From Chloroflexota bacterium (lineage in GTDB: Bacteria; Chloroflexota; Anaerolineae; J102), in contig JAADGC010000157.1 in NCBI GenBank assembly GCA_013152585.1, positions 1 through 53,764 of the forward strand: a DNA stretch of 53,764 nt. Reading direction: 5' to 3'. The notes under the pieces were generated by a model. It made no database searches and had not been told where the DNA came from. It saw nothing but the letters and a program-made list of their open reading frames with translations. Shown here one piece after another: positions 34,755-39,820 of this stretch; position 1 is the first letter of the stretch; each line of letters begins with the position of its first letter. The translations under genes and the position numbers were made by a program.

Positions 34755-36944
34755 CTATAAGGTGCGTGCCAATGGCACCAACTTCATGAACCACTGCTGG
34801 CGGGGACGCTCGTATGGCCAATCCATCTCGGACAGGGCTTCGTCCAGCGTTTTGTGGAGAATATGTTTGCCGCGCAGGCCAATACAGCGATAGTCCGGCC
34901 GCTGGCCTGCTTCTATTTTGGCCAGACATTCGATGGCGGCCACGGCAAAACGGCCGGCCAGAATGCGATCAAAAGGCGAGGGGGCGCCCCCGCGCTGGGT
35001 GTGCCCCAACACCACCGAACGCACATCAAAGAGAGCCCCGCCCTCTTCATCCAGAATACGCCGCACCATCGATTGGTCATAGACAGGAGAGGCATTTTCG
35101 CTCTGAATCCAAATCGAAAGCCGCTTCCCCAGCTCGAATCCGTGGCGCAAAGTAGACACATCAGCGGCCAATTGTTGCAGTGTGATCCCTTCCTCGGGCA
35201 AATAGATCCCTTCGGCGCCCGACGCCAGGGCCGCCATCACCGCCAGATAGCCCGAATGATATCCGGCTACTTCCACCACGAAAGCTCGTTTGTTGGCCCC
35301 GGCGGTATCTTTCACGCGGTCGATGGCGGAAACAATGTTATTGAGGGCGGTATCGGTGCCCAACGAAAAATCGGTGAGAGGCAGGCTGTTGGTGATGGAA
35401 GCGGGGATGATGACGGCAGGCAGTTGGAATTCGGGGTGCGCCTGCCGGTGGGCTTGTATCAGGGCCAGATTGCGGTAGGCGTCCAGCCCGCCCACAATCA
35501 CCAGGGCCGAGACCTGGTGCTGGCGCAACACCTGCGCCAACATGGGTAGATCGGCCTCTTGCAGCAAATACCGCCCCGCCCCCAGTTCCGACCCCCCGCG
35601 CCCGGCCCAGCCGCTGACGTCCATCCATCCCAGGGCACGAATATCCTCCTCCAGCAGACCGCTGAAACCATACTGGCCGCCCAGCACGCGGTAGCCCCGA
35701 TTCAGGGCCACCCGGGTCAAAACCTGCACGCACGAATTCATGCCCGGGGCGTCGTGCCCGGCCGTCAGCACCAATAGATTCCCTCGCGAAGCGTCAACGT
35801 CGGGCGCAGACTGGGTCAGGAGTTTGAATAGCTTCAGTTGTTCCTGAAAGCTATGCCCCCGCAATTGCAGGGCAGCATCATAATCTCCCTCGTCGATGCA
35901 TTCGCCCACGCTGCGACTTTGGGTCACCATTTCATCCAGGGGCGTGCTTTGCACCTTGTTCTCGACAATGCCCAACATGCGCGGGGGCGCGTCGGCACCC
36001 ACCGTCATCAGATTCTCGATGGCGGCTGCCCCCAGGCGACTGGCCAACACGCGGTCGAAGGCACTGGGGGCTCCCCCACGCTGTACGTGCCCCAGAACCG
36101 TCACCCGGGCTTCGATGCCGAGGCGCTTCATCAGGATGTCACGCACAGTGTCGGCTTTGAGAGGCAAGCCGTCGGGATGCCGCGCCCCTTCGGACAGCAT
36201 GATGATGGCGTGCTGGCGGCCAGCATCGCGCCCCCGCTGCAGTGAGGCCACCATCTCCCGGTGCCAGCGCGGGTTGAGTTCTTCTTCAGGGACTATCAGC
36301 CAATGGCTGCCGGCGGCCAGGCCCCCGGCCAGGGCCAGATAGCCACAATGCCGGCCCATCACCTCCATGATAAAGGTGCGCTGGTGCGCCGACGCCGTAC
36401 TCGCCAGTTGATCGGCGGCGGTGACAATGCGGTGCAGGGCGGTATCGGCACCGATAGACATATCGCTGCCGTAGGTATCGTTATCGATGGAGCCGGGCAG
36501 ACCGACGACGGCCAGTTGCGGGGGGGCGTCGGCATCTAAAGTGGCCTGACCCGGCGCCAGGGCTTCCTGTAAAAGCTGGGGCCATTCGGCCGCCAGCAGG
36601 TGGGCGCCGGTCAACGAACCGTCACCACCGATTACCACCAGACCGTCTATCCCCAGGCGATACAAGTTCGCGGCTGCCTGACGGCGTCCTTCTCGCCGGC
36701 GAAAGTCGCGGCAGCGGGCGGTGCCCAGCACAGTGCCTCCCCGCTGCAAAATACCGCCCACCGAGCCCCAAGTCATTTTTTCGATGGCCTCGCCGCCATC
36801 GACAGCCCCTTGCCACCCATTATGAATCCCGTACACTTCCAGACCGCCGTGCAATGCCATACGAACGGCGGCGCGGATAGCAGCATTCATGCCGGGGGCA
36901 TCGCCGCCGCTGGTGATAATTGCAACTGCATGAACTTTGGACAT
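34755..36944 (-). CDS. Double-domain 6-phosphofructokinase (eukaryote-like N/C fusion)
   Basis: Phosphorylates fructose 6-phosphate in glycolysis. At 729 residues it is two PFK domains in one chain, against about 320 for ordinary bacterial PFK. The N-half keeps the active site: GGDGS at 106-110, PGSIDND at 150-156 (catalytic Asp154), MGR at 196-198 and GHVQRGGAPS. Gly in both GGDGS and PGSIDND indicates ATP, not pyrophosphate, as donor. In the C-half GGDGS has become GGLDAY (485-490) and PGTIDND has become PASITNS (514-520), so it should be inactive and possibly regulatory. An AGGAG just before the ATG at 36944 decides the start. Confidence 0.92.
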   Translation of the reverse strand: MSKVHAVAIITSGGDAPGMNAAIRAAVRMALHGGLEVYGIHNGWQGAVDGGEAIEKMTWGSVGGILQRGGTVLGTARCRDFRRREGRRQAAANLYRLGIDGLVVIGGDGSLTGAHLLAAEWPQLLQEALAPGQATLDADAPPQLAVVGLPGSIDNDTYGSDMSIGADTALHRIVTAADQLASTASAHQRTFIMEVMGRHCGYLALAGGLAAGSHWLIVPEEELNPRWHREMVASLQRGRDAGRQHAIIMLSEGARHPDGLPLKADTVRDILMKRLGIEARVTVLGHVQRGGAPSAFDRVLASRLGAAAIENLMTVGADAPPRMLGIVENKVQSTPLDEMVTQSRSVGECIDEGDYDAALQLRGHSFQEQLKLFKLLTQSAPDVDASRGNLLVLTAGHDAPGMNSCVQVLTRVALNRGYRVLGGQYGFSGLLEEDIRALGWMDVSGWAGRGGSELGAGRYLLQEADLPMLAQVLRQHQVSALVIVGGLDAYRNLALIQAHRQAHPEFQLPAVIIPASITNSLPLTDFSLGTDTALNNIVSAIDRVKDTAGANKRAFVVEVAGYHSGYLAVMAALASGAEGIYLPEEGITLQQLAADVSTLRHGFELGKRLSIWIQSENASPVYDQSMVRRILDEEGGALFDVRSVVLGHTQRGGAPSPFDRILAGRFAVAAIECLAKIEAGQRPDYRCIGLRGKHILHKTLDEALSEMDWPYERPRQQWFMKLVPLARTL

Positions 36945-37004
36945 AACAACTCCTGAATATTGATTCATGACACAAAGCATCGTGTTTGTCTAGAATGAAC
37001 CTGC

Positions 37005-37243: not shown

Positions 37244-37384
37244 ATGAGCCAGGCACCAATCCAATCGCCATCAGGTATGCCAGCATGGGATCAATGCTGG
37301 GGGGGTGTATGCTGCATGAGTGCAAATGATACCCGGGAACAGAACAGCGCCCGGACTTTGGTCTTTTTCCACGCTACCGATTGA
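37244..37384 (+). CDS. Small ORF (46 aa) with CWGGVCC motif upstream of kbl
   Basis: ATG preceded by GGAG at good spacing, downstream of a promoter, 46 codons, ending 25 nt before kbl. The peptide has two Trp and three Cys clustered in [10 protein letters not shown], with a polar C-terminus. It could be a leader peptide controlling kbl, a small metal- or redox-binding protein, or a chance frame. No modification enzyme for a peptide natural product is nearby. Codon use is not decisive at this length. Confidence 0.4.
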
Positions 37385-37409
37385 TTCAATTCACCTGCCG
37401 GAGAGAGTT

Positions 37410-38603
37410 ATGACCGATCCTACACATAAACACCAGTTTATCATCGACGATCTCAAACGCCTGGAAGCAGAAAGCCTGCTGATCAGCATTCGCACCATTG
37501 AATCTGCTGCGGACAACTGGATGGTGGTGGATGGCCAGCGCGTGCTTAATTTCTGTACCAACAATTATCTGGGCCTGGCCAATCATCCCCGCCTGCGAGC
37601 GGCGGCCCAACAGGCCATTGATCGCTGGGGCGTGGGTCCGGCGGCAGTGCGCACCATTGCCGGCACCACGGCCCTGCATCGTGAGCTGGAACAACGCCTG
37701 GCGGCATTCAAGGGCGTGGAAGATGCACTTTTTGTGCAAAGTGGCTTTAACGCCAATCAGGCAGCCATTGCTCCGCTTGTGGGCAAAGGCGACGTGATCT
37801 TTTCTGATCGGCTCAACCACGCCTCCATAATCGATGGCTGCCGGCTTTCGGGCGCCAAGATCATCGTCTACGCACATTGTGATCCGGCAGACGCCGAGGC
37901 CAAAATCAAAGAGCACCTGCCCCGGTATCGTCGCGGCATGTTGATCAGCGACGGCGTATTTAGCATGGATGGAGATATCGCTCCCCTGGACGGGCTTTAC
38001 GAAGTGGCGCAGCGCTACGGCGTGCTGACGATGGTGGATGATGCCCATGGTGAGGGCGTGTTGGGGCGGGGAGGGCGCGGCATTGTGGATCATTTCGGCC
38101 TGCACGGTCAGTTCGATGTAGAGGTCGGCACGCTTTCCAAGGCCTTTGGCGTGGTGGGAGGCGTGATTGCCGGCAAGAAGATCATCGTTGATTATATCCG
38201 CCAAAAGGCCCGACCCTTCCTCTTTTCCAGCGCCACCACGCCGGCCGACACCGCCGCTTGTCTGGCCGCAGTGGATGTGCTGGAAGAAAGCGAGGATCTG
38301 GTGCAAAAACTGTGGGACAATGCCCGCTATTTGCGCACCGGCATGGATGATCTGGGCTTCGATACCGGCCACAGCCAGACGCCCATCCTGCCCATCATGC
38401 TCGGCGAGGCCAAATTGGCCAAGACCTTCAGCCGCCGTCTTTTCGAAGAAGGCGTCTTTGCCATGAGCATCGGTTTCCCCACGGTTCCCCAAGGCCTGGC
38501 CCGCATCCGCGTCATGAATACCGCCGCCCACAGTCAGGACGATCTTGATTTCGGCCTGAAAGTGTTTGCAAAAGTAGGCCGCGAGCTGGGCGTCATTGCT
38601 TGA
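37410..38603 (+). CDS. kbl: Glycine C-acetyltransferase (2-amino-3-ketobutyrate CoA ligase)
   Basis: PLP enzyme of the alpha-oxoamine synthase family. It cleaves 2-amino-3-ketobutyrate with CoA to glycine and acetyl-CoA, the second step of threonine breakdown. 397 residues; the PLP lysine is Lys244 in GTLSKAFG, with the [23 protein letters not shown] and [10 protein letters not shown] blocks of Kbl. GGAGAGAG before the ATG at 37410 decides the start. Threonine dehydrogenase (tdh), the usual partner, is absent from the window. AONS or serine palmitoyltransferase are less likely alternatives. Confidence 0.9.
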
Positions 38604-38710
38604 GGCTGCTCCCACGCCCACAGACCTCTTCCCACCATTATCAACCTCCCCCCCTACCCCATTCGTAACTACTTAGGTCCCTCAAAAAGTGGCCCTTCCC
38701 TGCTGAATTC

Positions 38711-38779
38711 AACCACAGATGGCACAGACAGCGCCGGTTTGTTGTTACTCATCTGTGAAAATACGTGAAATCTGTGGTT
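38711..38779. repeat. Inverted repeat in the kbl-glpX gap
   Basis: AACCACAGAT and ATCTGTGGTT form a perfect 10-bp inverted repeat with about 49 bases between, including ATCTGTGAAA and ACGTGAAATC. This type of ATCTGTG-rich intergenic sequence is common in many bacterial genomes. It could attenuate read-through into glpX. Confidence 0.5.
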
Positions 38780-38830
38780 AAGAACGAGGATAGCTTAGGT
38801 GTTACTCCCATTCTTTTTAAGGAAGCATTC

Positions 38831-39820
38831 ATGAGTCACCCCCCTGATCGAAACCTGGCCCTTGAGTTGGCACGTGTCACCGAAGCTGCGGCATTGGCCG
38901 CGGGCCGTTGGATGGGCCGCGGCGACAAGATCGCCGCAGACCAGGCTGCTGTTGACGCCATGCGTCTGGTGCTTAACACGGTCGAAATGGATGGCGTTGT
39001 CATCATTGGCGAAGGCGAAAAAGACGAGGCCCCCATGCTCTTCAATGGTGAGCGTCTGGGTACCGGCGCCGCCCCACATGTGGATATCGCTGTCGATCCT
39101 ATCGATGGCACCCGCCTGACTGCCGAGGGGGGGCATGGTGCGCTGGCCGTGGTGGCCATAGCTGAACACGGCACGATGTACAACCCCTTTCATGTGGTGT
39201 ACATGGACAAAATCGCCGTCGGTCCCGAGGCCAAAGGTGCCATTGATGTCAACGCCCCGGTGGCGGCCAACCTGAGCAGCATTGCCCGAGCTCTGAACAA
39301 GGACCTCGACGACGTCACGGTTATGATCCTGGATCGGCCCCGTCATGCCGAACTCATCCAGGAGGTGCGCACGGCCGGCGCCCGTATTCGCCTGATCCGT
39401 GATGGCGATGTGGCGGGGGCTATTGCCACTTGCATGCCTGATTCGGGCATCGACGCTCTCATGGGCATTGGCGGATCGCCTGAAGCCGTGATTGCCGCCG
39501 CCGCCCTGATCTGCCTGGGTGGAGACATGCAATGCAAGCTTTGGCCGCGCAATGAGAAAGAAAGAATGCAGTCACTGGCGGCCGGGCAGGAACTTGATCG
39601 GGTGATCGGGATTACGGACCTCGTACGCGGAGACAATGTTTTCTTTGCGGCCACCGGCATTACCAACGGCGAACTCCTGGACGGCGTGCGTTACTTTGGC
39701 GGCGGCGCCGTGACGCACAGCATTGTCATGCGCTCGCGTTCCGGAACCATTCGCACCATTACAGCCCGGCATCGTTGGGATAAGCTAATGGTCTACAGCG
39801 CCGTGGCTTACGGTGCCTGA
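38831..39820 (+). CDS. glpX: Fructose-1,6-bisphosphatase class II
   Basis: Removes the 1-phosphate of fructose 1,6-bisphosphate in gluconeogenesis, the reverse of the PFK step encoded nearby. 329 residues with the Li+-sensitive phosphatase motifs: IIGEGEKDEAPML, DIAVDPIDGTRLTAEGG and the GIGGSPEAVIAAAAL block of GlpX. AAGGA before the ATG at 38831 decides the start. Some cyanobacterial relatives also act on sedoheptulose 1,7-bisphosphate; that cannot be told here. Confidence 0.93.
   Translation: MSHPPDRNLALELARVTEAAALAAGRWMGRGDKIAADQAAVDAMRLVLNTVEMDGVVIIGEGEKDEAPMLFNGERLGTGAAPHVDIAVDPIDGTRLTAEGGHGALAVVAIAEHGTMYNPFHVVYMDKIAVGPEAKGAIDVNAPVAANLSSIARALNKDLDDVTVMILDRPRHAELIQEVRTAGARIRLIRDGDVAGAIATCMPDSGIDALMGIGGSPEAVIAAAALICLGGDMQCKLWPRNEKERMQSLAAGQELDRVIGITDLVRGDNVFFAATGITNGELLDGVRYFGGGAVTHSIVMRSRSGTIRTITARHRWDKLMVYSAVAYGA

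Follow-up and report, generated by a model that had tools for sequence, protein, structure and literature searches.

A gene whose product carries two fused phosphofructokinase (PFK) domains lies on a bacterial contig from a member of the Chloroflexota, within a stretch of 53,764 nucleotides that we refer to as the window. The preliminary description of this DNA offered two readings, that the enzyme is a bacterial relative of the eukaryotic PFK or that it is a parallel case. The locus raises the question of whether the two types are related by descent and, if they are, in which group the doubling took place. PFK-1 is a textbook case of gene duplication leading to new allosteric sites (Poorman 1984, cited in PMC12203962), and as recently as 2024 and 2025 a paper and a review have called this duplication eukaryotic, or that of animals and fungi. 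It was already known that bacteria carry a two-domain PFK: a 2021 study described Cagg_2702 of Chloroflexus aggregans as a 747-residue 6PF1K_euk protein and noted that many Chloroflexota have homologues of it (PMC8004040). Our literature search, with Bapteste 2003 outside its reach, turned up neither a description of the deep branch to which the window protein belongs, nor a tree that covers the two halves, nor any view on the direction of transfer. The protein is a deep-branching form of a type already known; what is new here is the evolutionary reading of it. The explanation that we favor, with a probability of roughly 0.75, is that the N-half would be catalytic, that the C-half would sense a sugar phosphate, and that the duplication would have occurred in bacteria, with a later transfer to eukaryotes.

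The gene, its product and its surroundings

The features of the gene are collected in Table 1. The PFK gene is encoded by the minus strand; on the plus strand the frame of 34755-36944 is interrupted by stops. A second in-frame ATG, at 36980, is a less likely start than the one at 36944, which has AGGAG upstream. The motifs that the preliminary description had read in the two halves are all present, and the C-half stretch that it quoted, PASITNSLPLTDFSLGTDTALN, is present in the protein, matching at every letter.

Table 1. The double PFK gene of the window and the parts of its product (positions are those of the window).
Feature	Position	Strand	Remarks
Double PFK gene, 729 aa + stop	34755..36944	-	start ATG 36944-36942; uninterrupted ORF and TIGR02478 match
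AGGAG, putative ribosome-binding site	36950..36954	-	5-nt spacer to ATG; sequence reading
Predicted catalytic N-half, residues 5-345	35910..36932	-	active-site residues in place
GGDGS, residues 106-110, N-half ATP/Mg loop	36615..36629	-	
PGSIDND, residues 150-156	36477..36497	-	catalytic Asp154 and Asp156
Interdomain linker, residues 346-385	35790..35909	-	limits chosen from double-PFK alignment
Predicted non-catalytic C-half, residues 386-715	34800..35789	-	sugar-phosphate pocket R458, R553, E616, R642, H648, R651 retained
GGLDAY, residues 485-490, C-half lost ATP loop	35475..35492	-	
PASITNS, residues 514-520	35385..35405	-	T518 at the catalytic Asp position

The claim of two fused PFK domains in one chain is borne out by PF00365, which matches two domains (E 4.5e-184). 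The NCBIfam model TIGR02478 (6PF1K_euk) scores 815.9 bits over residues 6-728, compared with a curated cut-off of 708.4 (E 3e-245), and the best solved relative, human PFKP, aligns over residues 5-728 (E 1.1e-187). Because both of these matches are full-length and have such E-values, a chance match is ruled out. The preliminary description had also proposed that the structure be modeled. An AlphaFold model, for which the window and locus sequences alone served as input, has a pLDDT of 91.8 and a pTM of 0.92. When compared with human PFKP and PFKL by Foldseek, the predicted structure fits over the whole chain (TM 0.96-0.97, rmsd about 1.5-1.7), and VIA-align gives a Z of 52 across 727 residues. 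Judged from its sequence, the window protein belongs to the two-domain 6-phosphofructokinases that are commonly termed eukaryotic, and is ATP-dependent.

The likeness to the eukaryotic enzymes (human PFKP, PFKM and PFKL, yeast Pfk1 and Pfk2; TIGR02478, IPR009161) includes the architecture, the fold and the order of the halves, as well as a predicted catalytic N-half, a C-half from which the ATP site is gone and the retained sugar-phosphate pocket known as F'. Identity to PFKP is 49% in the N-half and 36% in the C-half. There are also differences. The window C-half retains R651 (in QRGG, which is QQGG in eukaryotes) and D398, both absent from eukaryotes, and it lacks the C-terminal regulatory tail of vertebrate PFK-1, about 20 residues long: the last residue of the protein, 729, is also where the alignment with the human core stops. 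Human PFK is regulated by this tail (PMC12203962). When the comparison is made with single-domain bacterial enzymes, all 319 residues of Geobacillus PFK (3pfk) superpose on the window N-half with an rmsd of 1.3 and 46% identity. However, the bacterial single-domain ATP-PFKs (Geobacillus, E. coli PfkA; TIGR02482) have one domain per chain and all their chains are catalytic, whereas in the window protein two domains are fused and one of them appears to be dead.

With Geobacillus PFK as the active-site reference (its sequence was confirmed against 3u39), the catalytic set of the N-half is intact: R77, D108, G109, S110, D154, D156, R189, R198, E252, R280, H286 and R289. The presence of G109, together with a PGSIDND that is free of Lys, is that of the ATP type. 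An active site so preserved suggests that the N-half catalyzes the reaction F6P + ATP -> FBP + ADP.

Of the closest named relatives, one, 81% identical, is in a Chloroflexi MAG of the same genus (L036/L014), and further ones, 60-70% identical, are found in Caldilineales, Caldilineae and Anaerolineae MAGs. The source of the window is therefore very probably one of the Caldilineales within the Chloroflexota. Divergent from the adjoining PFK gene, at 37320-39820 on the plus strand, are genes for a KBL-like (2-amino-3-ketobutyrate CoA ligase) PLP enzyme, to which Pfam assigns aminotransferase class I/II only, and for a GlpX fructose-1,6-bisphosphatase. This trio is conserved in L036, and in the distant locus L012 glpX adjoins the double PFK. 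Eukaryotic contamination of the contig is ruled out by the bacterial neighbors and by the synteny with L036. A search for plasmid carriage of the contig gave no match.

The window genome has two more PfkA-type genes, one with PKTMDND and GGDDT and the other with PKTIDND and GGGGT, and it also encodes several PfkB-family sugar kinases. Because both of the other PfkA-type genes carry a Lys at the PPi-associated position, the double PFK appears by motif to be the one PFK-A that is clearly of the ATP type in an assembly that is 96% complete. The combination of GGGGT with PKTIDND in one of these single PFKs (L003, G000:C89) is an unusual mix for phosphate-donor specificity. In the Chloroflexota loci L009, L075, L080, L084, L085, L087 and L090, a single-domain PFK with a PPi-like GGDDTL lies near the double PFK. 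The arrangement in Chloroflexus differs from that in the window genome, with its PPi-like PKT(I/M)DND in the other two genes: in Chloroflexus aggregans a strongly transcribed single PFK (1312 TPM) exists beside the weakly transcribed Cagg_2702 (9 TPM; PMC8004040).

Decay and retention in the C-terminal half

The preliminary description regarded the C-half as decayed, with Thr518 in place of the catalytic Asp, and T518 does align with the catalytic D127 of Geobacillus PFK. Relative to that enzyme both Asp residues are replaced (T518 and S520) and the ATP loop is lost, with G11 changed to H397, D103 to L487, G104 to D488 and S105 to A489. This loss of motifs would make ATP binding and catalysis by the C-half impossible. 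A catalytically competent C-half had been named as the observation that would speak against decay; GGDGS was not found in the C-half of any of 80 bacterial double PFKs. Across bacteria the decay is graded, the motif reading IDND, INND, INNN or ITNS, while eukaryotes have SNN. The C-halves of L010 (G051) and L012 (G048), among the least decayed seen, have a complete IDND and yet have lost the ATP loop. The dN/dS values are 0.11-0.27 for the C-half and 0.07-0.14 for the N-half, and these ratios are rough, since dS exceeds 1 in every case. The C-half is the faster evolving of the two, yet purifying selection acts on it.

What has been kept in the C-half is the old F6P pocket, with its phosphate-binding residues (Table 1). 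Across 40 diverse bacterial sequences R553, E616 and R642 are invariant and R458 and H648 nearly so. Compared with the F' pocket residues in the UniProt annotation of human PFKM, the window protein has S516 for T, A560 for M and Y562 for G. In eukaryotic PFK the same pocket serves as the F' site, to which fructose-2,6-bisphosphate binds (PMC12203962). A priori this compound might be the native effector here as well. We consider this candidate unlikely because 6-phosphofructo-2-kinase (6PF2K, PF01591) gave no match in the window genome or in 27 others, nearly all of which have a double PFK. Since no 6PF2K match was found, the effector is more likely F6P or fructose-1,6-bisphosphate, and the C-half, by means of its retained phosphate-binding residues, probably senses one of these as an allosteric signal.

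It is possible to imagine that the C-half is a structural partner only, which makes up the tetramer and has no effector. The pocket of the window protein is altered at the positions of the second Asp (S520), a Met (A560) and an Arg (Y562), the human-type C-terminal tail is missing, and the eukaryotic C-half serves stability too (PMC12203962). Nevertheless, the retention of R458, R553, E616, R642 and H648 in the window protein and in nearly all of the 40 diverse bacteria makes a purely structural role unlikely, and we favor a C-half that would respond to a sugar phosphate.

Trees of the two halves and the direction of transfer

The preliminary description was right that a bacterial double PFK exists, but the window protein is not an isolated instance: the type is present across Chloroflexota and Actinomycetota and has been known for Chloroflexus since 2021. 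Double PFKs above the TIGR02478 cut-off were found in 18 of 61 near relatives, in 42 of 400 sampled Chloroflexota and in 15 of 296 Actinomycetota, the centre genome of that sample being included among the 15. The latter sample is from the phylum of Mycolicibacterium. L042 (JAKIXW010000210.1) comes from a record titled Acidobacteria, but its phylum sample coincides with that of Mycolicibacterium, so that the title is probably wrong and the locus was counted with the Actinomycetota. None was found in 296 genomes from the phylum of G450, which includes a Bacteroidales MAG. One candidate, L107 (G021), whose alignment was confined to the C-half portion of the profile, was rejected as a single PFK with GGDDT/PKTIDND. 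The locus L011 (G005), from the same family as the window genome, has a double PFK of the eukaryote-side type, so that two lineages of the enzyme occur within one bacterial family.

The trees were built from a joint alignment of the N- and C-halves, of single PFKs and of six eukaryotic sequences (human, yeasts), the last of these taken from PDB alignments. Every N-half falls in one clade (100/99) and every C-half in another (100/100). Because each of these clades unites bacteria and eukaryotes, a single duplication-fusion gave rise to all the two-domain PFKs sampled. The clustering of bacterial and eukaryotic halves by position, N with N and C with C, supports the reading of the window protein as a bacterial relative of the eukaryotic type. 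Within both clades the window family lies outside a group that contains the eukaryotes and the other bacterial doubles (100/100 and 100/99 for the two halves). This early branch was recovered in two further runs, one of them with another aligner and without L021 (98 and 97). L021 likewise lies outside the eukaryote-containing clade. The Chloroflexota and Actinomycetota relatives of Cagg_2702 resemble the window protein as bacterial two-domain PFKs above the cut-off; those that were sampled group with eukaryotes, whereas the window family is outside that clade. The eukaryotes are placed inside or beside the other bacteria, with the placement differing between runs. When Geobacillus PFK was added, the single PFKs ceased to form one group.

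The conserved residues bear on the direction of transfer. All six polarized columns set the window family outside a group of other bacteria and eukaryotes and none fits either alternative. Of 93 ancestrally conserved columns, 14 keep their residue in the C-half of some bacteria and have lost it in each of the six eukaryotes, among them the Asp of IDND, the Arg of MGR and the Arg of QRGG; the reverse was found in 0. R651, D398 and T394 are retained by all five members of the window family in the set and by few other bacteria. Because of the six polarized columns and the 14 ancestral residues versus 0, bacteria are favored as the source. The duplication and the decay of the C-half probably arose in bacteria, although this is not proven, with AU test p-values against bacterial monophyly that range from 0.005 to 0.26. 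The preliminary description did not go on to infer that the duplication probably occurred in bacteria and predates the presence of the doubled enzyme in eukaryotes. On this evidence a single duplication-fusion in bacteria would have yielded all two-domain PFKs, the lineage of the window would have split off early, and eukaryotes would then have gained the doubled gene by lateral transfer.

Alternatively, the duplication may predate both groups, with the bacterial doubles forming one clade and the eukaryotes its sister, so that neither direction of transfer would be favored. The AU test does not firmly reject this arrangement: p was 0.12 with N-halves alone and 0.26 with C-halves alone. For both halves it was 0.005 when the site profiles were derived from the free tree and 0.076 under LG+G4, and a second alignment gave 0.028 with one guide tree and 0.127 with another. 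The groups compared were picked after the tree was seen, the six eukaryotic sequences are a narrow sampling, and eukaryotic C-halves are fast-evolving and in some cases odd in composition. However, the best forced tree fell short of the best free tree by 19 to 69 log-likelihood units in every comparison, all six polarized characters oppose it, and bacterial monophyly appeared in 0% of 200 bootstrap trees for either half. We consider a sister-group relationship rather improbable.

A eukaryotic duplication, from which bacteria gained their double PFK by lateral transfer, would accord with the patchy bacterial distribution described above, and PFK transfers are known in both directions (PMC12203962). 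This origin is nonetheless very doubtful, since the ancestral C-half residues of the 14 columns are lost in all six eukaryotes yet kept by bacteria, and the window family and L021 make at least two branches of bacteria that are placed outside the eukaryotes. Moreover, the Pro that single PFKs have in PGTIDND is retained in both of these branches, and in the clade that contains the eukaryotes its place is mostly taken by Val. An independent duplication in the window lineage, parallel to the eukaryotic one, has nothing in its favor that we found and can be set aside, because a tree in which the N- and C-halves of the window family are held together is worse by 154 log-likelihood units (AU p 2.8e-162), a result that also disposes of the recent local duplication against which the preliminary description had asked for a check.

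Returning to a bacterial origin, we think it fairly probable that the PFK-1 duplication is bacterial, that the window lineage is a surviving early branch, and that eukaryotes received a doubled enzyme whose C-half was already a sensor, before the link to fructose-2,6-bisphosphate was made. The doubled and half-retired PFK has long been regarded as an invention of animals and fungi, and the trees suggest instead that the doubling took place in bacteria before eukaryotes acquired it. If so, the fructose-2,6-bisphosphate site would have been co-opted from a more ancient sensor of F6P or fructose-1,6-bisphosphate, and the change from a catalytic to an effector site could be studied in living bacteria, in which the decay of the C-half is graded.
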